A stretch of 31,520 nt of DNA from a virus, in IMG/VR virus record IMGVR_UViG_3300048837_000163, positions 1-31,520 of that record; one strand, given 5' to 3'. Below are positions 2,753-31,520 of the stretch, in pieces. The number at the start of each line of letters is the position of its first letter. Position 1 is the stretch's first letter. The notes under the pieces were generated by a model. That model was not told the DNA's origin and searched no databases. It saw only the letters and a program-made list of their open reading frames with translations. The translations under genes and the position numbers were made by a program.

Positions 2753-3399
2753 TCCGCGACCATGAACGTGATGACCGGCGCGATGGTCGTTTCGTTACCA
2801 CCGATGCCCTTCGCGCTGCTCGAGCCGTCAAAGGCGGTCGTCATCGCGCGCACCTGCCAGTAGGTCGTCTCGCCCACGTCCACCGCCACCGCGGCGTGGT
2901 TGCCGTTGATGTAGCCGGGGCAGACGATCGACTGCCAGACATTGCCGGTGAGGCTCGGCGTGATGTCGGCCGGGAAGCCGCGCAGGTAGAACGAGGTCGC
3001 GGTCGTGGTGGCCACCAGATACGGCAGCCGCACCACGGCGATATTGCCCTGCAGCGTCCAGTACGCCGTGCCGGTGGCATAGTCCGTGTTGTCGAGCACG
3101 TTCCCCATGCGCATCGTGAAGCTGCCGCTCGACTTCACGCCGTAGCGCGTGTCGGCGGTCGTGCGGTTGAGCGCGTCGGTATCCGCCGAGGCATTGCCCA
3201 GCCCCGTGATGCGCTGGCCGTTCCACGGGGTTGCCGCCGTGGGCACCCCGTTGCCGTTCCTGAGCACGCACAGACTCAGCGCCGTGGCGATGCCGGCCAT
3301 TTCCGTATCGAGCTTCGAGATCGCGATCGGCGGACTGGCCGCTTCGGTCGCCCAGGTGTAGGTGAGGGTGTAGTTACCGCTGCCGTCGAATCCTGCCAT
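2749..3399 (-). CDS. Tail fibre or virion appendage protein
   Basis: This protein is 216 residues long. The N-terminal region, with GSGNYTLTYTW, an Asp-rich helix and WNGQRITGLGNASADTDALN (about residues 58-78), is typical of the head end of short phage tail fibres. The rest is beta-rich and Gly/Thr-rich, with no catalytic motif recognised. The ATG at 3399 has a GGAG ten bases upstream. It lies between the ejection-protein genes and the lysis genes, where podoviruses often keep receptor-binding proteins. Given its short length, it may be an adaptor or a fibre of one segment. Confidence 0.62.
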   Translation of the reverse strand: MAGFDGSGNYTLTYTWATEAASPPIAISKLDTEMAGIATALSLCVLRNGNGVPTAATPWNGQRITGLGNASADTDALNRTTADTRYGVKSSGSFTMRMGNVLDNTDYATGTAYWTLQGNIAVVRLPYLVATTTATSFYLRGFPADITPSLTGNVWQSIVCPGYINGNHAAVAVDVGETTYWQVRAMTTAFDGSSSAKGIGGNETTIAPVITFMVAD

Positions 3400-12891: not shown

Positions 12892-13518
12892 TTACTTGAG
12901 CGCTTTCGCAAAGAGCTTTTCCGGGGGGAAGCCATTGACGATTCGGCCGTTCATGGTGTTCGCATGGATGCCGAGGGCACGCGCCCATCCAGCAACGCTC
13001 AGGGTGATGCCGTTGTGCGTCAAAGTCCGAACATTCCGCCGATTGGCGGACTGCTCAGTCTTCGTTGCCCAGCGACAGTTCTGCGGCGAGTAATCACCGT
13101 CACCGTCCACGCGATCAAGTGACATGCCATCTTCCGGGTAGCCCATGTCAGACAGGAAGTTCTCAAACTTCTGCCACCGCTCGCAGACCTTGATGCCGCG
13201 ACCACCGTAGTACGCCCATTGCTGGCTACGGGGGTTGTTGCACCGCGAGAGCATTCCGCACCAGATGCGGTACGCCCTCGTGTTGGTCATGCCGTGCGTC
13301 TTGTTGCCGTGTCCGAGGACCGCAATCCGCTCGTCGTTCAAGCAGCCGCAACTCTTGACCTTGCCGCGCTTCAGGTCTTGCCCGTAGGCCGTGACGGTTT
13401 CGCCACAGTCGCACTTGCAGACCCAGCGCGCGTTCTGATCCTTCCCGCCCCTGTTTTGAGCGCGGTCGATCACGGTCAGTCGCGTATACCGCTGTCCCAT
13501 CCGGTCAATCAGTTTCAT
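12892..13518 (-). CDS. HNH homing endonuclease
   Basis: The 208-residue product matches phage free-standing HNH endonucleases. A zinc-binding N-terminal part has CKCDCG (residues 34-39) and CGC (57-59). The nuclease core runs from HGMTNTRAYRIWCGM through YYGGRGIKVCERW to SLDRVDGDGDYSPQNCRWA (133-151) and ends in EQSANRR. A C-terminal HTH-like unit with SVAGWARALGIHANTM (175-190) should bind DNA. The ATG at 13518 follows GGGGTG. The frame is open up to 13581, but a start there would place about 20 uncharacteristic residues before the zinc part. It sits as a selfish insertion between the major capsid and decoration genes. Confidence 0.8.
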   Translation of the reverse strand: MKLIDRMGQRYTRLTVIDRAQNRGGKDQNARWVCKCDCGETVTAYGQDLKRGKVKSCGCLNDERIAVLGHGNKTHGMTNTRAYRIWCGMLSRCNNPRSQQWAYYGGRGIKVCERWQKFENFLSDMGYPEDGMSLDRVDGDGDYSPQNCRWATKTEQSANRRNVRTLTHNGITLSVAGWARALGIHANTMNGRIVNGFPPEKLFAKALK

Positions 13519-13604
13519 CACATACACCCCAATCCCGAGAACCGGGTTGTAGTGTACAGCGTCTTGATTAACCTTGCCCATGTGATTGCCGAATCAGCCT
13601 AATA

Positions 13605-22729: not shown

Positions 22730-24240
22730 CAGCGTGGCGCCACGTCAGCGCGGACGCCGGCGGGCACGATGCGCAACTGGCGACCCGCCCAGCGCACCGT
22801 ATCCCCGACCGAGCCCTGGCCGCTGTACTCGAACAGCGTGTGGTATTGGCCCCATTTCACGTGCGGGATGCGGCCATTGGTGGACGGCGGCGGGTGACAG
22901 TTGCCGCCCGACCAGTCGAAGCGCGGCGAGCCGTCGGCGTCGGCATCGACCCAGACGCGCAGCCGGCCGTTGCCGCCCTCCGCGTTCGTCTTGTAGCACC
23001 AGCGGGCGGCGATCACGATGTCATACCACTGCCCGACAGTGAGCGGTGAAATCAGGTCCGTGTAGCGGTTGCCGCCGGTCTCGATGTTCGCTTCCTGGTA
23101 GACCTGAATCCTCGGGGTCGCTGTCGTACCAGTAATCAGCAGGGCGAATATCGGGTCCTGGCCCGCGCCGCCCTCGGTGTTGTGGAACTGCCAGCAGTAG
23201 CCGGTGACGAGCGCGCCCGCGAAGGTCAGTTCCTCGATGCGGAATCGCCAGCCATACCACATTTCCGGCGCCCGACCATTGACATCGAAGTAGCGATCGA
23301 ACAGGGCCGGATAACTGCCCTTAAGCTCGGCACGATACGAGTCGATGCCCGGATATGCGCCACTCGGCAGGCTCGCGACCGTCTTTGTAATTCGTGTTCG
23401 GAACTGCCGTTCGCTCTCGAATGCGGCGATTGATGTTTCCATCATCCCAGCAATGCTGCCGCTGTCGATGTTGCCGTCGATATGGTGCCGCCAGTAACGT
23501 ACCCCATCTCGATAAAGGCCAGCAGACGACACCACTCCCAAGTCGTAATCGGTCCACGGTTCTTCCAACAGCAGCGCCGCATCCGATACCGTCACCGCGC
23601 ACGTCGCGCTCGCCGTCAAGATGCCGTCGCTGGCCGTCACGGTGACATTGCCCGAGGTGCCCGCGGCGCTCGCCGGGATCGTCACGAGGCCGGACTGGTT
23701 CACGGTCACGCCGGACGTGTACGCCGACACGCTGTAGATCACCGTGGCGCCCTCGGGGTCTACCGCCGTGAACTGGATCGTGCCGCCCGTCGCGGCAATG
23801 CTGGCCGTGGTCGGTGCGACCGTGAATGCCGGCGCCGCGTTGCCCGTGCAGACGATCGTGGCCGTGCCGATGGTGCCAGTCTGTGCCGCCTCCCAGCTTG
23901 CGAGCGACCAGGTGAAGTCCTGCGAGCTTGCACTCAGGCCGAACGATCCCCGCGCCCACCGTGAGGCGTCCGAGTTCTCGAAGCGGATATACCAGTTCGC
24001 GTCAGGCGTGGCCGTAGTGCCGACCGTGAAGCTCGACACCTCACCGATCAGGACCGATCCGCCCGAAGCCGTGGCCCAGGGTGCCGCCATCGTGCCGGTG
24101 CCCATAACGGCATCGGCGCCGTTGTAGACCGCGACGGTGATCGTGCCCGTCAGGCTCGCCACGATCGCCGTGGCGCGGCTCGCAGCCGTGGTGACTGCGT
24201 CGTAGGCGGCCTTCGTGGTGGCGTCGAACGTGGCGCTCAT
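22729..24240 (-). CDS. Virion protein with Ig-like and heparin-lyase-like domains
   Basis: The 503-residue protein has three modules. Residues 1-130 match the N-terminal domain of the protein at 19225-20604. Residues about 133-220 are an Ig/cadherin-like domain with FTVAPTTASIAATGGTIQF and GNVTVTASDGILTASATC. Residues about 225-480 resemble the heparin lyase I / polysaccharide lyase jelly roll, with WYGWRFRIEELTF, YCWQFHNTEGG, GQWYDIVIAARW and GRLRVWVDADADG. It could be a depolymerase that cuts capsule or other glycans. A binding-only role is possible because active residues are not assigned. It overlaps the small gene after the portal by ATGA. Confidence 0.7.
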   Translation of the reverse strand: MSATFDATTKAAYDAVTTAASRATAIVASLTGTITVAVYNGADAVMGTGTMAAPWATASGGSVLIGEVSSFTVGTTATPDANWYIRFENSDASRWARGSFGLSASSQDFTWSLASWEAAQTGTIGTATIVCTGNAAPAFTVAPTTASIAATGGTIQFTAVDPEGATVIYSVSAYTSGVTVNQSGLVTIPASAAGTSGNVTVTASDGILTASATCAVTVSDAALLLEEPWTDYDLGVVSSAGLYRDGVRYWRHHIDGNIDSGSIAGMMETSIAAFESERQFRTRITKTVASLPSGAYPGIDSYRAELKGSYPALFDRYFDVNGRAPEMWYGWRFRIEELTFAGALVTGYCWQFHNTEGGAGQDPIFALLITGTTATPRIQVYQEANIETGGNRYTDLISPLTVGQWYDIVIAARWCYKTNAEGGNGRLRVWVDADADGSPRFDWSGGNCHPPPSTNGRIPHVKWGQYHTLFEYSGQGSVGDTVRWAGRQLRIVPAGVRADVAPR

Positions 24241-24446
24241 ACGTGCAGCACGCCGCTGATCTCGCCCGTCGCGAGGGTCACGTCCTCACCGATCACCTCG
24301 ACGCGCACCGTGGGGTAATAGAGCACGTACTGCCCCGGCCCCTGCTTGGCGCAGGACTCGATCGCCTCGCGCTCGAGCCGGTGACGCGAGAGGATCACGC
24401 CATCGCGCGTGACCTCGATGTAGCCGTTGGCGGTGAATTCGATCAC
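24237..24446 (-). CDS. Small protein between portal and decoration block (69 aa)
   Basis: A 69-residue protein contains a likely small beta fold with FTANGYIEVTRDG, a helix REAIESCAKQG and the strand YVLYYPTVRVEVIG. Both ends overlap neighbours by ATGA, so it is translated with the portal. Family and role are not recognised. It may be a head accessory protein. Confidence 0.62.
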   Translation of the reverse strand: MIEFTANGYIEVTRDGVILSRHRLEREAIESCAKQGPGQYVLYYPTVRVEVIGEDVTLATGEISGVLHV

Positions 24447-26848
24447 TGCACTCTCGACGTGGCGCCCTTGATGCGCCCGTCGGCCCCCTTCTCGAACGTC
24501 ACGGCCTTCGGCCGCTCAACCGCGGCAATGACGGCCTGCATCCCGCTCGAGAACACCTCGGCCAGCCGCTCGAACGCCTGTGCCTGCTGCGCGCCGATCG
24601 CCTCGACGGCCGCCACGGTCGGGGCGGCCACATTGGCCCCGGCCTGCGCCAGTTCCGGCACCGGAACCGGAGTGAGCTTCGCGCCCCGCGGCACGCCATC
24701 GCGGCCCATGTCGAAGGCCACCTGTTTGGGTGCCTGCACGGCCGCGATGACGGCCTGGAACCCCTCCCGCACGCCCTCGAGCGTCTGCACGACCCCTTCC
24801 GTGGTCTGCATCGCGGGGACCATCTGCAACGCCTCCACGGCGCCGGTAAGCTGCTGCAGGAGCATCTGCTGCTGCTGCGCGATCTGCTGCAAGCCCATCT
24901 CGGCGCCCTGCGCGACCTGCCCGACCTGCTGCAGCGCGCCCTGGATCTGCTGGTCGTATTGCGTGAGCGCGGCCTGCTGCTGCTCCTGCGCGATCTGCGC
25001 CTGCGCGCCCTTCGCACTCTCCTGCTTGATCATGCCCATGACCTCCTGCGCGAATTGCTGCTGCACCTGCTGCGGCACCTCGTCGCCGGTCATCGCTTCG
25101 ATGCTGTCCTCGACCGCGTGGCCCATGCGTGCTCTGCGGACCACCGCGAGGCTGATCGACTTCGCCACGTCGATCGGCAAGCCCTGCGGCACGCCGGCCA
25201 TGATCGTCCCCACGGCCGTGATGACCTCGTTCATCCCCTCCATGTCGCGCTCGATCGTCTCCGCGACCGTCGAATCGCTCTCCACGTCCACGCGATACTG
25301 GCGCAGCGCGTCGGAGCGCATCACCTGCAGCAATTGCTCCCACGTCGGCTTGGACAGCGCCTCCACGACCTCGGGCGGCGGCTGCTGGCCGGCCATCTGC
25401 GCCTGCTGTGCAATCGCCTGCGCCTGCTGCTGCGCCTGCTGGGTCGGGAACTGCAGGTTCGTCGCAGCGGCCAGCGTCTCGGGCCGGAACCGCTCGGCAA
25501 TCACTTCGGCCTGCAACCGGAACACGTCGCGGATCGTGCGGGCAATCTCGCGCTGCAACCGCTGCAGGCGCATCGAGCCCCATTTCGACTTCAACTGCTG
25601 TGCGGCGGCCGTCTCGTTCGCGTCGGTGCTGCCGCGGATGATGTCCGACAGCCCCGTGATCTCGTAGATCGACTGCTTGATCTGATCGCGCGCGGCGTAG
25701 AGATGCTGTAGCACCTGTGCGAGCTTCTCGATCGGCAGCGTCCAGATCGCCTTGTCCAATCCACCCACGCTCGCGATCTCGCTGATGTTCGCGACCGGGA
25801 TCATCTCGTTATCCCCGGCGCCGAGGATGTTGGCGATCTCACCCAAGTTCGCGCTGTACGCACCGCGCACCTTGAGCGCATCCACGATCTTGTTGATGCG
25901 CGCCGATACCTTGTCGAGTTCCTTCGCCTGCTCCTCGTACATGCGATACAGCGGCACCGGCAGCAACGTGCGGGTGTCCTTGATCGCGTAGGCGGGGCGC
26001 GGGCTGGGGTAGAAGTCCACCAGGCTCAACGGGTCGGGCACTTCCTGCAACGGGCCGGCGGCATAGCTCGGCGCCACGAACAGCACGCGGCGCTGGTCGC
26101 GGTCCCAAATCTCCCACACCTCGACGGTCTTGAAAATCTCCCGCGTCGTGCGGTCGTCGCTGATCGCGGCGTGGTCCTTGCCCTCGCTGTAGGTCAACGC
26201 CTGTGCAATCTCAGGCCCGAACTTCTCCGCCGCCATTTCCTGCGTGAAGTCGTGCCGGTACGCGATCCACGGCACTTCCTCCCAGCGCTTGCCGGGGCCG
26301 TGCCTGAAGTCATCCCACTGCACCGCTTCACAGCGCACTTCCTCGCTCGTCAACCGCTCGGCCGGTTCCTGCACGTCGTCGGGTGCGCCCTCAGCGGCCT
26401 CCATCGGCTGCTGCGGCACGGGTGCGAACTTCGGCTCGTACTTGATGCGGATGACGCCCCGCCCCGTCACCAGCATGTCGAGCGCGAACGCCTCGGCCTG
26501 ATCGTCGAAGTCGTAGGCGTCGGTCTGCGCCGAGAGCGTGCGCTCGATCACGAGGCTCACGGCCTTGCCCACCGGATCCTCGTCGCGGAAGCGGCGCCGC
26601 ACGTCGGGCTGTGGTGTCGAGTTGTAGATCGCCGGGAGCAGCGTCTCGGTGTTGCTCCAGAAGATGTTGAAGGCGTGCGCTTTCTTGCGGCCGCCCTCGT
26701 ACATGTCCCAGAGCTTTTTGCTTTCCTCGCGCCAGTCCTTCTCGGTGCGCTCGGCAATCGACAGTTCCGCCAGCCATCTTCGGACCTTGCCCTGCGGGGT
26801 CCGCTCAATTTCCGCGGGCGTGGTGAGGGTCAGTGCTTCGTCGGTCAT
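24443..26848 (-). CDS. Portal protein, P22 type
   Basis: At 801 residues this is close in size to P22-type portals. The N-terminal part has WREESKKLWDMYEGGRK and NIFWSNTETLLPAIYNSTP, a hallmark start of this family. The clip and stem region follows (about residues 200-460). A long Gln/Ala-rich helical C-terminus (about 460-720) fits the barrel or crown helix of podovirus portals, ending in a short compact domain. It should form the dodecameric ring for DNA packaging and tail attachment. The start at 26848 overlaps the terL stop as ATGA. Confidence 0.85.
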   Translation of the reverse strand: MTDEALTLTTPAEIERTPQGKVRRWLAELSIAERTEKDWREESKKLWDMYEGGRKKAHAFNIFWSNTETLLPAIYNSTPQPDVRRRFRDEDPVGKAVSLVIERTLSAQTDAYDFDDQAEAFALDMLVTGRGVIRIKYEPKFAPVPQQPMEAAEGAPDDVQEPAERLTSEEVRCEAVQWDDFRHGPGKRWEEVPWIAYRHDFTQEMAAEKFGPEIAQALTYSEGKDHAAISDDRTTREIFKTVEVWEIWDRDQRRVLFVAPSYAAGPLQEVPDPLSLVDFYPSPRPAYAIKDTRTLLPVPLYRMYEEQAKELDKVSARINKIVDALKVRGAYSANLGEIANILGAGDNEMIPVANISEIASVGGLDKAIWTLPIEKLAQVLQHLYAARDQIKQSIYEITGLSDIIRGSTDANETAAAQQLKSKWGSMRLQRLQREIARTIRDVFRLQAEVIAERFRPETLAAATNLQFPTQQAQQQAQAIAQQAQMAGQQPPPEVVEALSKPTWEQLLQVMRSDALRQYRVDVESDSTVAETIERDMEGMNEVITAVGTIMAGVPQGLPIDVAKSISLAVVRRARMGHAVEDSIEAMTGDEVPQQVQQQFAQEVMGMIKQESAKGAQAQIAQEQQQAALTQYDQQIQGALQQVGQVAQGAEMGLQQIAQQQQMLLQQLTGAVEALQMVPAMQTTEGVVQTLEGVREGFQAVIAAVQAPKQVAFDMGRDGVPRGAKLTPVPVPELAQAGANVAAPTVAAVEAIGAQQAQAFERLAEVFSSGMQAVIAAVERPKAVTFEKGADGRIKGATSRVQ

Positions 26849-28314
26849 TCCTCACCTATCCGCGCACGGCGGCGCTGCGCAATGATTTCGCTCACGGTCA
26901 TCTGCGTCGATTTCGCGAACCGCACCGGCTTGGGCTTCGATTCGGCGCGCACCCACGGGCGGGCCATTACGCTATAACGTGTTTGGTCTGCCGCGTGATC
27001 CTCACCGTCGCTGTCGCAATCTTCAGGTCGCGCGTCGTCGTGCTGCAAGGCCGGCAGCGTGCGGATCAAATGCACGCAGGTATCGAAAAAGTAGATCATC
27101 GGCCGGCCGGTCTCTTCGTCACCGACCAGTCGCGAGCGCAGCATGTCCCAGCCACCGCTCGCCCCGCGCTTGCCGATCCGGGAATTGTCGGCGCGTTGAA
27201 AGAACACTCCGCGCTTCGACATTCGCTCGGCCAGCGACGGGCCGCCGTCCTCGGCAAATGCGGCCGGGTCGATGACCGAGTAGTCGATCTTCTCCCCCGG
27301 CTCTTCTCGGTCGCGGATGCCGTCTGCCACTTGTTCGGCCGTGAGTTTCAGACCGACGTTCGGCTGTCCTGGCTGCATTCCATACCACTCGCGGTATTGC
27401 ACCAGCGCGCCGCGCGGGATCTCGTTGAACTCGCCATCGGACACGGCGTACCAGCCGACCGAGAACGGCTTGGCCGATCCCCAGTCCATGCTCCGCAGCC
27501 TGAGCCAGTGCTTCGGAATCGCGAACGGCTTGATGACGTGCCGCTCGGTACTGAACTCGCTGAAGAATGCCCCGGCGACCACGTTCCAGTCACCCTCTTC
27601 CATCGCCTTGACGAGCGCGGGCGCGCCGAGGCCACGCAGGCGAGCGCGGTACTGCGGGTCGTCGGTTGCCATGCTCGGGTTATCTTCGAGCCGCGCCGGG
27701 ATGAACTGCCGCAGCATCCCACCCTCTTCGTCGGGCGTCTGCCACGCCTCGAGCGGGGTGCGGTTGTCGATGAATGCCGCCTTGACCCAGTGATGCCCGA
27801 TGTTGCCGGGATTGCTCGACGCCAGCACGCGCGGGAATTTCCCGATGAGGTTGTCTGGCAGGTTCAGTCCCACGGCGCGAACCCGCGAGCGCAGGAAGCG
27901 GTAGATGACATCGGTGAACGTCGTGAGTTCATCGATGAGCAGCAGGTGGATCTCGGCGCCGAGGTACTTGAAGCGGTCCTTCTCGTCCTTGCAGTGGCAG
28001 AGATAAATCTTGCTGCCGTTCCAGAATCGGATTTCGTCCTCGAGGATGCTGACCAGTCCCTTGAGTTGCCACGGCGCGAGCATGGCGCGCAGCCCCTTCG
28101 GGCCTTCGATGTGGTTCTTGACGAGATCTTCGCTGATGCGCCGGAACAGATAGCACTGCAGGCCCGGTATCTGAGCGCACCAGGTGACGGCCGAAACGCG
28201 CATGAGGTGGCTTTTCCCACCCTAACCTCCAGCCGCGCCGCCATACAGAATCTCTGTGGCGTGCGACTGGAAGGCTCTCCCTTGTTTTCTATGCAGCGTG
28301 AAGTTCAGTTCCAC
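26845..28314 (-). CDS. terL: Terminase large subunit with in-frame TAG in the Walker A loop
   Basis: The visible long ORF starts at ATG 28203, but the same frame continues upstream through one TAG (28222-28224) to a GTG at 28314. Those 30 extra codons include TLHRKQGRAFQ and ATEILYGGAAGG, the usual terL N-terminus and half of the P-loop. GGKS follows the stop. Later motifs are intact: LLLIDE (Walker B), ASSNP (motif III), and nuclease-type acids in SMDWGSAKP, DYSVIDPAAF and a final Asp-rich HAADQTR region. Skipping six bases would give a 487-residue protein of normal length. The ATG-only product lacks Walker A and should not be an active packaging ATPase. Possible explanations are ribosome hopping, inactivation or an assembly error. 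Confidence 0.82.
28205..28227 (-). other. Possible ribosome-hopping site GGT-TAG-GGT
   Basis: On the minus strand the codons are GGA GGT TAG GGT GGG AAA AGC. The same Gly codon GGT lies directly before and after the stop, so peptidyl-tRNA could leave one and land on the other. GGAGGT, just before the stop, is a strong Shine-Dalgarno-like sequence. A hairpin with stem GGGTGG/CCACCT (six pairs, one G-T) and loop GAAAAG follows (28222-28205). A stop next to a Gly take-off codon, plus a hairpin, recalls T4 gene 60. The function here is inference. Confidence 0.4.
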
Positions 28315-29002
28315 GGGTCCACCGCCTGTGAGGCTCGCCAACGCGGATTCGCCCGCTATTGCCCGTCTGCGCTGCATACGACGGGATGCCCTCGTGGTGA
28401 CGACGGCGCATGATCGTTCTTTTGCTTACTCCGTATTCGGCGGCGAGTTTGTAATCGGGCATCGTCCCGAGGCGCGCAAGACAGGACGCCGGCAGTTCTA
28501 CCGGCTGGAACTGGTTTGCCTCGATGCGGGGCGGCGGCGTGTTCCGCGATCGGTCGAACGATGCCGGGATGCCGAGGCTGTCGCGGTAATACGCAACCGC
28601 CTTGCGTGTCACGCCGAGCGATTCAGCGATGCGCGAATCCGCCACCGTTCCGAGTTGGTCGATGACGGCCTGCGACAGACCTCCAAGCCTGTTTTGAGAG
28701 CCGCCACCGCCGGCAGCCTTGGCGTTGTAGAGGCCGGTGAAGGATGCCATCCAGCGGCGTTCGGCCTCGCGCCAGTCTCCGGTGCATTCCTCGAGCAGTT
28801 CGATTCGCGGCGGCGCGCCAGATTCCACCAGCCCGCAAAGCCACGCGGCCTTTCCGCTGTGCTTGGGCCTCCCCCGCCTGGCGGCGTTGATGTGATCGGC
28901 AAGCCGGCGAGGCAGAGACAGCATGGTCTGCCCGACGTAGCAAACGACCCCGGTTACGGGATCGATCAGGGCGTAAATCTTATGAACCGGAGATCGTGAC
29001 AT
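28289..29002 (-). CDS. GIY-YIG homing endonuclease with two DNA-binding repeats
   Basis: The 237-residue product has a GIY-YIG nuclease domain at about residues 7-100: KIYALID for GIY, CYVGQT for YIG, Arg in LPRRLADH (residue 33) and the catalytic-type Glu in REAERRWM (about 79-81). Two similar HTH-like units follow, LGTVADSRIAESLGVTR (117-133) and LGTMPDYKLAAEYGVSK (178-194), each ending in Gly-Ile-Pro. These should bind DNA. The ATG at 29002 is preferred because the extension to 29062 shadows terS. It overlaps terS by 23 bases and the terL start by 26. It is free-standing, not in a visible intron. Confidence 0.84.
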   Translation of the reverse strand: MSRSPVHKIYALIDPVTGVVCYVGQTMLSLPRRLADHINAARRGRPKHSGKAAWLCGLVESGAPPRIELLEECTGDWREAERRWMASFTGLYNAKAAGGGGSQNRLGGLSQAVIDQLGTVADSRIAESLGVTRKAVAYYRDSLGIPASFDRSRNTPPPRIEANQFQPVELPASCLARLGTMPDYKLAAEYGVSKRTIMRRRHHEGIPSYAAQTGNSGRIRVGEPHRRWTRGTELHAA

Positions 29003-29387
29003 TGACGACCGCCTTGAGCGCGTTGCCATCCGGGTCTGCGTGCTTGTGCAAGGTGGCGTCACCGTACTTTTTCGGTTTCAGCTTGGCCGCGACCCATTTG
29101 CGGGCATCGACTCGCAGCCTGTCGCGGTTCGCGTCACCCGAAACATCGTCAGCGATTTCGACGATCTCTTGCGCGAGAACGTCCGCTGATTCCTCTCTGG
29201 CCCTCGCGTACTGGTCACGAAATGCCTCATCCTGAGACAGCCAACGAAGGATCGTCGTCTTTGCCGGCATCCCATCGTCAGCCTCGATCGCGCGCAAGGA
29301 CTCACCGATTGCAATACGCGCGCAGATGTTGGCGCCCAATTCAGGCGTAAAGATGCTCGGGCGTCCCACGGGGGTTATGTAGCGCAA
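28980..29387 (-). CDS. terS: Terminase small subunit
   Basis: The 135-residue protein matches Sf6-type small terminases: GRPSIFTPELGANICARIA, GESLRAIEADDGMPAKTTILRWL (a DNA-binding HTH, about residues 28-50), FRDQYARAREESADVLAQEIVEIAD and RLRVDARKWVAAKLKPKKYGD. Such proteins form a ring that recognises phage DNA and loads the large subunit. The longest start is TTG at 29387, which overlaps the previous stop. A GTG at 29369, giving VGRPSIF, is an equally possible start, and neither has a clear Shine-Dalgarno. The homing endonuclease gene separates it from terL. Confidence 0.83.
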   Translation of the reverse strand: MRYITPVGRPSIFTPELGANICARIAIGESLRAIEADDGMPAKTTILRWLSQDEAFRDQYARAREESADVLAQEIVEIADDVSGDANRDRLRVDARKWVAAKLKPKKYGDATLHKHADPDGNALKAVVNVTISGS

Positions 29388-29584
29388 TCGTCAGGCGGTG
29401 GACAGCCCAAAAAGTGTTCCTGCGCACGCCTGCGCCTGAGTTCGTAGGCACGCTCGACGCGGCGGATGGTGGTGATGGACACCCCGAACTCGTGGGCGAG
29501 CGCCTTGAGGGTGCAGAGGCGTCTGAGGCGCACGCGCTCGAGGATGACGGCTTCCTGCTCGGGGGTGAGGCGCTTGGAGGTCAT
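29375..29584 (-). CDS. Small HTH DNA-binding protein (69 aa)
   Basis: A 69-residue protein contains a helix-turn-helix, LCTLKALAHEFGVSITTIRRVERAY (about residues 23-47), of the kind found in Hin-like or sigma-region-4-like proteins, with basic flanks (RRRRAQEH). The ATG at 29584 overlaps the nuclease stop as ATGA, while the upstream open frame to 29659 is a shadow. It lies just before terS, so it may regulate late genes or assist DNA recognition. The target is unknown. Confidence 0.7.
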   Translation of the reverse strand: MTSKRLTPEQEAVILERVRLRRLCTLKALAHEFGVSITTIRRVERAYELRRRRAQEHFLGCPPPDDCAT

Positions 29585-29871
29585 CGAATCGCTCCAATGG
29601 CCTGCAGGGCTTCCTCGGGCGTCCTGACGACGTACACCGGCAGGCCCTTGCGCTGGCACTCGGCAATCGTCTCGGTCTGCGTGGCGCGGTCCTTGCGGGG
29701 TTTACGCTCCCCTTCCCGCTTGACCTCGAGCAGCACGAACCGGCCGTGGAGGCCGACGAGCAGGTCGAGCGGGAGTGAGAGTCGCCAGACCTTTGCGCCG
29801 GCGGCCTCGAGGGCTTCCACGATTGCTGGTTCGTTGCTGTCGCGCTTGGCGGCTCGGCGAAAGATGGTCAA
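29581..29871 (-). CDS. PD-(D/E)XK-type nuclease, VRR-NUC/Holliday-resolvase-like
   Basis: The protein is 96 residues long. It shows the compact nuclease pattern: SNEPAIVEALEAAGA (N-terminal acidic helix), LPLDLLVG with the first Asp, FVLLEVK with the ExK pair, and a Gln in RATQTETIAE. These match phage VRR-NUC or resolvase-like enzymes that cut branched or damaged DNA. A TTG at 29871 was chosen as start because a good AGGGGG lies four bases upstream. Another TTG at 29913, directly after the FDXHR-gene stop, gives 14 extra residues. Packaging-linked resolution of DNA branches is a plausible role (inference). Confidence 0.7.
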   Translation of the reverse strand: MTIFRRAAKRDSNEPAIVEALEAAGAKVWRLSLPLDLLVGLHGRFVLLEVKREGERKPRKDRATQTETIAECQRKGLPVYVVRTPEEALQAIGAIR

Positions 29872-29913
29872 GGTTCCCCCTAGCGTATGCGTGTTCAGGA
29901 ATCGACGCAGCAA

Positions 29914-30180
29914 CTAAGCCGGTACATCGGTCCGGATTTTTAAGATCGCGTCACGGCGAATCACATACGCTCGCGCTGGACCCATCCACGCACGGAACCA
30001 ACGCCCGTACTGGTTACGCCCCCACCCGGCCTCGTCCATTTCGGCGTCCGTTAGGCACCGACGCCCATAACCGGGGGCGTGTAGGTCGTATTTGCCAGTC
30101 CGGTGCTTGTCGAACGTGCTGGTGGTAGTGAACACCTTGCCGCAGGCGTTGCACAGCGAGACTTTCCCGCGCAGTTTCAT
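29914..30180 (-). CDS. FDXHR-type putative zinc-binding phage protein
   Basis: The 88-residue protein has CNACGKVF with a Cys-x-x-Cys, then FDKHRTG, the hallmark FDxHR sequence of a phage-specific putative zinc-binding family, then RRCLTDAEMDEAGW with a Cys that could complete the site. This is followed by WGRNQYGRWFRAW, as in relatives. The ATG at 30180 overlaps the winged-helix stop (ATGA). A GTG at 30189 would add three residues. The family is thought to bind zinc from its conserved Cys and His residues. Its role is not established. Confidence 0.76.
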   Translation of the reverse strand: MKLRGKVSLCNACGKVFTTTSTFDKHRTGKYDLHAPGYGRRCLTDAEMDEAGWGRNQYGRWFRAWMGPARAYVIRRDAILKIRTDVPA

Positions 30181-30476
30181 GCCGGCCACCAGGTCAGCAT
30201 GGGCCGACCCTTACAGGCCCGTGGCTCGCCCCGGCGGATGTGGTGCGGTTCCAGTTCCTTGAGGCGGCGGGCGACCGCGTGACGTTCGAGGCCGGTCAAC
30301 TGTGCCAGCTCGAGGTAGGTGGAGCCGGGGAACTCCCGCACCGCGTCCTTGAGGATTCGCTGGTGAGCGCCGGCAAAGTCTTTGGCGCGATCCCCGGCGC
30401 GGTGGCTGGTCTCGGGATCGTCCCGACGCGAACGGGGCGTGTCGGTGTACGGGGCGAAGGCGTCAAGCTGCTGCAT
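30177..30476 (-). CDS. Winged-helix DNA-binding protein
   Basis: A 99-residue protein begins with a short DPETSHRAGDRAKDF motif common in phage winged-helix proteins, followed by HQRILKDAVREFPGSTYLELAQLTGLERHAVARRLKELE (about residues 38-76), a MarR-like wHTH with recognition helix RHAVARRL. The tail has a basic wing-like end. It is preceded by GAGGA and overlaps the previous gene by 14 bases. It probably regulates phage genes or takes part in replication. The target is unknown. Confidence 0.74.
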   Translation of the reverse strand: MQQLDAFAPYTDTPRSRRDDPETSHRAGDRAKDFAGAHQRILKDAVREFPGSTYLELAQLTGLERHAVARRLKELEPHHIRRGEPRACKGRPMLTWWPA

Positions 30477-30672
30477 GGTGTTCCTCGCATAGCCGCCGCG
30501 CTTCCTCTGCGCTCGGCAGATTGGTGGCGATCAGGTGCGGGCCTTCCGGGTGCGACCGAGTAACCCAGCTTTCATAGAAGCCCCGGTGTCCGTTGTCGAA
30601 CCCGATGGCGCAAACTGAATAACGGCAGCACTTGCTGCGCTGAGCGTAGCGGTCGACCTTCTCCCACTTCAT
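30463..30672 (-). CDS. Hypothetical protein (69 aa)
   Basis: The 69-residue protein has three Cys in RSKCCRYSVCAIG (residues 12-24), aromatic residues in HRGFYESWVTRS, and a C-terminal helix SAEEARRLCEEHH. It has the look of a small phage protein of unknown type, possibly metal-binding. The ATG at 30672 overlaps the methyltransferase stop as ATGA. A longer open frame to 30978 exists, but its first part shadows the methyltransferase. Function unknown. Confidence 0.64.
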   Translation of the reverse strand: MKWEKVDRYAQRSKCCRYSVCAIGFDNGHRGFYESWVTRSHPEGPHLIATNLPSAEEARRLCEEHHAAA

Positions 30673-31391
30673 GCGAACAGCCTCCCCTGTGCATAGGCCG
30701 CAGCGATGCGCTCGCACGCGATGTCGAAATACTTGCGTTCGATCTCGATGCCGATGAACTTGCGGCCGAGGTTCGCGCAGGCCACGCCGGTGGTGCCGCT
30801 GCCCATGAAGGGGTCGAGAGCTACGCCAAGATTCGGAACGATTGCCGCCACTATTTTCTGAATTGTCGGCAACCACTTTTGCGTCGGATGGTCGGCTTTT
30901 TCCGCCGCCCTCACGGAATTTCGATAGCTGTCCGCCGATACGACGTTGACGCGCTTCGTGCTGGTGTCGCCAAACCATGCGCCCTTTCTGTACCCGTAAA
31001 TAGCCAGTTCAAAACCTGATGGCCACCATGTTCCAGGCATCGGGGGCGGCGGACATTCTTTGACAACACAAAACGGTTTCGGCGTTAGGCCGGAACCCCT
31101 AGCGGCCTCCGCAACAAGCCTGTACTGCTCGAACCCGCAGAAAACATGGAACGCATTGCACCGATCAAAACTCACTGAAAGAGCTGGGATAACTACGTCC
31201 TCGGTGACGCCGGGGCGATCAAAGTGAAATTCCATGCGCCTCGTGCCGTCCAAATCACTTGATCCAAATTTGTTTGGTATCTCGTAAGGCGGATCCGTCA
31301 CTACCGCATCCACCTTCGGCAGCGTAGGCAGGATTTCCAGGCAGTCGCCGTGGTACAGCGTGGCGTCGCCGATCTGCACGCACTCGCTCAC
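30669..31391 (-). CDS. DNA N6-adenine / N4-cytosine methyltransferase
   Basis: The 240-residue enzyme has DPPY (residues 33-36; catalytic motif IV) before FMGSGTTG (195-202; SAM-binding motif I), the order of beta-class amino-methyltransferases. HPTQK, with its usual position before motif I, and the final RKFIGIEIERKYFDIACERI support this. The start is GTG at 31391, overlapping the upstream stop as GTGA. The ATG at 31481 would extend it into a region that is coding in another frame. No restriction enzyme gene is adjacent, so it may protect phage DNA from host restriction (inference). The target site is unknown. Confidence 0.82.
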   Translation of the reverse strand: MSECVQIGDATLYHGDCLEILPTLPKVDAVVTDPPYEIPNKFGSSDLDGTRRMEFHFDRPGVTEDVVIPALSVSFDRCNAFHVFCGFEQYRLVAEAARGSGLTPKPFCVVKECPPPPMPGTWWPSGFELAIYGYRKGAWFGDTSTKRVNVVSADSYRNSVRAAEKADHPTQKWLPTIQKIVAAIVPNLGVALDPFMGSGTTGVACANLGRKFIGIEIERKYFDIACERIAAAYAQGRLFA

Positions 31392-31520
31392 GACAGCCCC
31401 CGCAGCCGCTTCACGTCGGCCCAGTTGTTGATCCACGTCGGCCACAGGTGACGCGGGGTCCGGCTGCACCAGTCCCGCCATTGCTGTTCTGCGGCAGGCA
31501 CCAGCGCGTCCGGGGTGTGC
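31388..31520 (-). CDS. C-terminal end of a cut-off phage gene
   Basis: A minus-strand frame runs from the window edge to a TGA at 31388 and gives 43 residues. It is rich in Trp (QQWRDWCSRTP, HLWPTWINNWADV), which favours a real protein. Its stop overlaps the methyltransferase GTG as GTGA, the same coupling seen across the window. Its N-terminus is outside the window, so function cannot be judged. Confidence 0.6.
   Translation of the reverse strand, partial: HTPDALVPAAEQQWRDWCSRTPRHLWPTWINNWADVKRLRGLS

Follow-up and report, generated by a model that had tools for sequence, protein, structure and literature searches.

A candidate very short ribosomal bypass over a stop codon in the terminase P-loop of a virus, and similar sites in other phage terL genes

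The interrupted terminase gene

The stretch of viral DNA analysed here (IMG/VR record IMGVR_UViG_3300048837_000163, positions 1 to 31,520; 31,520 nucleotides (nt), hereafter the window) carries on its minus strand a gene for the large terminase subunit (terL), of which the P-loop is broken by an in-frame stop codon. The site reads GGA GGT TAG GGT GGG AAA AGC (28230-28210), and the frame upstream of it, beginning with GTG at 28314, ends in GGC GGC GCG GCT GGA GGT immediately before the TAG (Table 1). Intact relatives read ...ATEILYGGAAGGGKSHLMR across the same point without interruption, so the terL of the window has six extra bases, including the in-frame stop, inside Walker A. The 30 upstream codons correspond to the N-terminus of those relatives (LHxKQ...ATEILYGGAAGG). 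The letters, coordinates, GTG start and 30-codon N-terminus given by the initial annotation are exact, and the six bases recur in a second record (L002 = L086, +6 as in the window), which matches the window without a difference over 8.7 kb and therefore may be the same virus.

Table 1. Features of the terL locus of the window; roles in bypassing are putative.
Feature	Coordinates	Strand	Description
First part of terL	28222..28314	-	GTG, 30 codons (N-terminus to YGGAAGG), TAG; resembles the N-terminus of intact relatives
Shine-Dalgarno-like GGAGGT	28225..28230	-	overlaps the take-off codon
Putative take-off codon GGT (Gly)	28225..28227	-	
In-frame stop TAG in P-loop	28222..28224	-	
Putative landing codon GGT	28219..28221	-	first codon past take-off, in any frame, readable by the same tRNA-Gly
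Second part of terL	26845..28218	-	resume codon GGG, then AAA AGC ... TGA; TerL ATPase and nuclease; PHROG 2
Frozen upstream element, 5' hairpin (GCCUUCCAGUCGC...GCGGCUGGAGGU)	28225..28275	-	-31.2 kcal/mol for the 60 nt up to the take-off codon
Hairpin after the stop (GGGUGG GAAAAG CCACCU)	28205..28222	-	
GIY-YIG-like endonuclease open reading frame	28289..29062	-	between terS and terL; weak GIY-YIG match, E 0.007
terS (context)	28980..29387	-	

Reassignment of TAG, or its suppression by a tRNA, was rejected: TAG terminates 6 of the 38 main open reading frames (ORFs) of the window, among them those of the capsid, an Rz-like protein and the endonuclease, as had been pointed out in the initial annotation, and no tRNA gene was found in the window, nor any suppressor tRNA in the loci scanned. 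It is also very improbable that TerL is made as two proteins, a 30-residue N-terminal peptide and a second product from an internal start. An ATG does lie just after the P-loop, at 28203, but the terL frame has no start codon between it and the TAG, for which reason internal re-initiation was rejected, and the GGKS codons, conserved in all cases, would go untranslated.

Recurrence of interrupted P-loops

A protein search of viral contigs yielded 80 TerL loci, most of them intact. Four relatives from four other metagenomes (L003, L004, L005 and L073; 81-85% identical) have five extra nt (+5) at the window's spot, and a more distant one (L008, 69% identical) has eight (+8); in the +5 and +8 relatives alike, TAG directly follows GGA GGN in the upstream frame. 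In the tree, the window, L082 and L085 form one supported group nested among intact relatives. The window's site is judged to be neither a sequencing error nor a lone pseudogene.

Pattern scans covered 2.9 million viral contigs and also bacterial genome contigs, and found the P-loop YGGAAGGGK broken by a stop right after a Gly codon in 67 contigs, representing 49 distinct sequences; distinct does not mean of independent origin, since several of the 49 share one family, and the tree covers the window's family only. The TerL families concerned differ widely (LHxKQ, GPQ, YSPSPRQ and PHKPTVKQ types), which makes many independent origins of the interruption likely. Inserts of whatever content, up to a length of about 30 nt, were also sought in YGGAAGG...GGK with no stop required; the 14 distinct short TerL inserts obtained after GGAAGG all had a stop codon at their start, against an expectation of 3/64 per insert, and chance is thus not the explanation. 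Two scans that had been planned as controls, with the stop placed after GGAAG or after GGAAGGG, turned up further interrupted terL genes; both covered TAA and TAG only, so TGA cases outside the GGAAGG position are uncounted. When the stop was sought after the P-loop Lys, no TerL was returned, the matches (L233-L239) resembling one other protein family that ends there.

From the bacterial genome contigs, the stop-led pattern scan recovered L132, a terL gene in a Deinococcota metagenome-assembled genome (MAG); the P-loop of this gene contains two TAG codons in tandem, and its ATG is preceded by a good ribosome-binding site (L132:3600-3710, minus strand). The other 25 of 26 genome-contig matches, as well as L111-L114, were dismissed as chance. 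Matches in two pieces by tblastn to Felix O1-like records were also set aside, as they reflect unrelated frame errors elsewhere and the P-loops are intact.

Insert lengths and landing codons

Among the 49 distinct sequences the inserts are 1 nt (6 sequences), 4 nt (3), 5 nt (16), 6 nt (12), 7 nt (2), 8 nt (3), 9 nt (6) or 10 nt (1) long, and never 2 or 3 nt. Because these lengths span all three frames, no single readthrough or frameshift accounts for them, and the protein is restored in every case only if the ribosome hops to a readable codon. Removal of the insert at the RNA level, as a degenerate intron or by an RNA-processing enzyme, is given very little credence: a true group I intron does occupy the same P-loop in L147, and inteins target it too (PMC5050341), but inserts of 1-10 nt are smaller than any known self-splicing intron, their lengths and contexts vary, many exon ends are not U, and no Rfam match, such as to a group I intron core, was found at the site (window 24000-31520).

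The sequences in which take-off would be at the last Gly codon of the run and the gap exceeds 1 nt (23 sequences) form a class in which the landing codon is free of protein constraint, and this class carries the weight of the argument, since the classes with take-off at an earlier Gly partly reflect the P-loop's own Gly codons. Its landing codons have G as the middle base in 23/23; they are GGN in 15 and AGC, AGT, CGA or CGC in the other eight, which match the take-off codon in the second base and in the wobble class of the third. Decoding of those eight by readthrough or frameshifting would leave a Ser or Arg in front of the catalytic Lys, where a hop would give GGAAGGGK. Overall, 20 of 43 take-off and landing codons are identical and 39 of 43 belong to the same wobble class, with few mismatches, and the agreement of the third bases exceeds that in shuffles (permutation P = 0.0007). 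In 31/49 the required offset is that of the first Gly codon readable by the same tRNA, and an earlier landing is predicted in 0/49; in the window, a sliding tRNA would pass over GGG at +5 and take GGT at +6. Two sequences (L096 and L188) read GGT TAA GGT.

Recoding with no hop, that is, stop readthrough at +6 and +9 and ordinary +1 or -1 frameshifting elsewhere, with extra residues left in the P-loop, is unlikely, even if it is the strongest of the competing explanations. Phages commonly use readthrough and frameshifting, and in L169, L182, L183, L198, L208 and L216 a plain +1 shift would serve. Against this, three different mechanisms would be needed at one site, the eight sequences just described would gain Ser or Arg, L087 and L132 carry two tandem TAG codons, preserved at 71% protein identity, and the insertion of a bare stop (+3) is never seen. 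In the +1 group (the six sequences just named and L228), an extra T in front of the Lys codon of the P-loop creates TAA, and these sites resemble plain +1 frameshift sites.

Structure and Shine-Dalgarno-like signal at the take-off codon

The 60-nt stretch that leads up to the stop is 100% identical between the window and L082 while the flanks differ, 90-93% identical with L008, and 73-87% identical with L103, of which the protein is 46% identical; beyond this element, identity drops to about 50% or less. Codon identity within the element is 0.71-0.90 between the window and L103, L008 and L082, and about 0.3-0.5 for intact relatives, in which the element is absent. The minimum free energy (MFE) of the 60 nt is -31.2 kcal/mol in the window and L082, -32.8 in L008, -30.4 in L083 and -23.7 in L103, compared with -18.4 +/- 3.2 kcal/mol for the same region of 67 intact relatives. 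Relative to synonymous recoding, z scores are -3.1 to -4.3 in the window, L082, L008, L083, L103 and L172 (about -4 for the window element alone, and -5.5 when the window fold includes downstream sequence), whereas none of the 67 intact relatives falls below -1.5. The 5' hairpin ends at the take-off codon, and the UAG sits at the junction of two hairpins. Of the other TerL families, only some have the hairpin (L145, L199/L223 and L209), and a second family (L185/L231) has a frozen 60 nt before its terL stop (97-100% identical, with a downstream synonymous divergence of 1.65), in which the predicted structure is weak.

A Shine-Dalgarno (SD)-like GGRGG is present at the take-off codon in 6/6 interrupted versus 9/58 intact members of the family. 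The initial annotation had singled out the SD-like GGAGGT and the small hairpin after the stop; both are present, but the stronger cis-acting signal is the hairpin upstream of the stop, and the 3' hairpin is given low weight because some intact relatives have a similar sequence there.

Selection on the two halves of terL

Comparison of the downstream part of terL in pairs of which both members are interrupted gave nonsynonymous (dN) and synonymous (dS) divergences of 0.119 and 0.95 for the window and L082, 0.028 and 0.81 for L182 and L183, and 0.030 and 0.51 for L209 and L230. The upstream halves are short and likewise conserved, and, apart from the interruption, the downstream ORF is complete in nearly all of the genes (400-460 residues in most). 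Judged by these substitution patterns, both halves of terL are under purifying selection, which indirectly favours translation of the two ORFs into one protein. A PHROG 2 search of 32 records found no second full TerL (two have a weak extra match); 15 of the 32 have no match at all, their TerL type being beyond the reach of the profile.

That terL is decayed or disabled, as in defective prophages or satellites, or that the interruptions are sequencing errors, is accordingly improbable. To the extent that their source could be established, all interrupted sequences come from metagenomes, MAGs or uncultivated records, a DNA search of isolate phages with two loci (L192 and L103) found no interrupted isolate, and three sequences (L092, L154 and L216) have a further break downstream, as might be expected of decay or error. 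Weighing more heavily on the other side are ratios of dN to dS well below 1 in doubly interrupted pairs, downstream ORFs that are mostly intact, occurrence in several metagenomes, and an insert length that is kept while its letters change (TAAGC in L185, TAGGT in L231); nor would a decayed gene always lead its insert with a stop and close it with a readable Gly codon.

Neighbouring genes

The endonuclease gene between terS and terL is absent from the interrupted relatives L082-L085 and L008, as from the +5 and +8 relatives, and is therefore not tied to the interruption; an endonuclease-bypass cassette like that of phage T4 was rejected on the same ground. The GIY-YIG-like ORF contains helix-turn-helix-like stretches, and L082 has the same gene arrangement with no such ORF. 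Elsewhere in the window, an HNH endonuclease gene (12892-13581, minus strand) adjoins the major capsid gene.

A hop over the stop codon and its precedents

The site in the window is best explained, with a probability of roughly three in four, as a programmed short ribosomal bypass, or stop-hop, akin to that of T4 gene 60 and very short. The hop between matching GGT codons first put forward in the initial annotation remains the best explanation in view of the 49 distinct TerL sequences, insert lengths of every class modulo 3, conserved landing codons and selection. The ribosome would translate to the GGT before the stop, hold it in the P site and pause at UAG; the peptidyl-tRNA-Gly would release, the mRNA slide by 6 nt and the tRNA re-pair with the next readable Gly codon, GGT; and decoding would restart at GGG to give the exact P-loop of the family, GGAAGGGKS. 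In the window's family, the strong hairpin, of which the 3' arm ends at the take-off codon, would refold behind the ribosome and probably aid slipping, as probably would the SD-like GGAGG. Phages related and unrelated to this one would employ the device too, hopping 1 or 4-10 nt from one of the three glycines of the P-loop. The hop, how efficient it is and the roles of the hairpin and SD-like stretch are inferred from the pattern of the sequences.

Several observations weigh against this reading. The landing codon mismatches the take-off tRNA in L008, L101, L201 and L209, and the +1 cases L183 and L198 (GGC to GCT) would re-pair poorly. Covariation in the hairpin is weak among the few sequences, no pair having changed on both sides; the L083 hairpin pairs only after a 2-nt shift of register; the strong upstream hairpin is confined to the window's family and a few others; and recent DNA exchange could account in part for the frozen 60 nt. 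Finally, a 2016 review knew of no natural in-frame stop-hopping, only of synthetic constructs (PMC5009743). No natural stop-hop was found in the literature, nor any paper on terminases and ribosomal bypassing beyond PMC5009743, in a search of mostly open-access papers.

Bypassing in T4 gene 60 involves a Gly take-off codon, UAG, a matched landing codon, a 5' stem-loop, a take-off stem-loop, a 3' stem-loop and the nascent peptide (PMC11194080). The window shares with it a Gly take-off codon directly before UAG, a matching Gly landing codon, a 5' stem-loop before take-off and a 3' stem-loop (PMC11194080, PMC5009743), and its SD-like stretch may be likened to that near the landing site of gene 60 (PMC11194080, PMC5009743). 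The 5' stem-loop is present in the window's family, with a putative stimulatory role. The two systems differ in that the gap is 6 nt in the window and 1-10 nt in its relatives but 50 nt in gene 60, the 30-residue N-terminus of the window lacks the KKYK nascent-peptide signal, and the stop of the window lies between hairpins whereas that of gene 60 lies inside the take-off hairpin; no take-off stem-loop holding take-off codon and stop was found in the window. Sites of the window's type also lie in the P-loop of an essential ATPase and recur across many families, unlike gene 60.

Also close are the synthetic +5 and +6 stop-hops of Weiss et al. (1987), in which matched codons flank a stop (PMC5009743): there, as in the window, nine nt (here GGT TAG GGT) would be read as one amino acid, and +5 and +6 are also the commonest insert lengths among the 49 sequences, but the sites described here are natural. 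The terminase gene of Streptomyces phage Hau3 has a putative bypass with a short coding gap and an SD sequence proposed 5' of the gap (PMC5009743); it shares gene, short gap and 5' SD with the window, but its take-off context is KGWG with a UUA sense codon, and there is no stop in a GGAAGGGK P-loop. The byp elements of Magnusiomyces mitochondria are short inserts that ribosomes skip, present in many copies and seemingly independent of mRNA context (PMC5009743), whereas the sites described here are in phages, in one gene and one motif.

Implications

Well-established natural bypassing is limited to T4 gene 60 and yeast mitochondria, and a natural in-frame stop-hop is unreported according to PMC5009743. 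It appears probable that the sites described here form a large natural class, so far overlooked, of programmed short hops over stop codons, with many origins in the Gly run of the terminase P-loop and with a structured cis-element in some lineages. These hops may protect the DNA of the P-loop against homing introns and inteins, or they may throttle the packaging motor. In L147, a group I intron (2290-2850; Rfam RF00028, 58.7 bits) follows a Gly codon of the same P-loop, and the terL of L081 has an apparent intein (around 2900-3001) ending ...THN|S at the P-loop Ser. Site protection has earlier been proposed as the origin of the gene 60 bypass. Such protection would be a plausible origin here too, given the intron in L147 and the fact that inteins with active endonucleases have hot spots in TerL P-loops (PMC5050341); these introns and inteins have the same target site but are long, self-removing elements. 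The purpose of the hop may be either to throttle TerL or to shield P-loop DNA from the homing endonucleases of introns and inteins.

Interrupted terL genes would be split or missed by gene callers, and terL is a main marker of phage taxonomy. Through its dozens of minimal and compact sites, this one essential gene would provide a natural experiment on ribosomal take-off and landing, open to testing by means of short inserts in E. coli.
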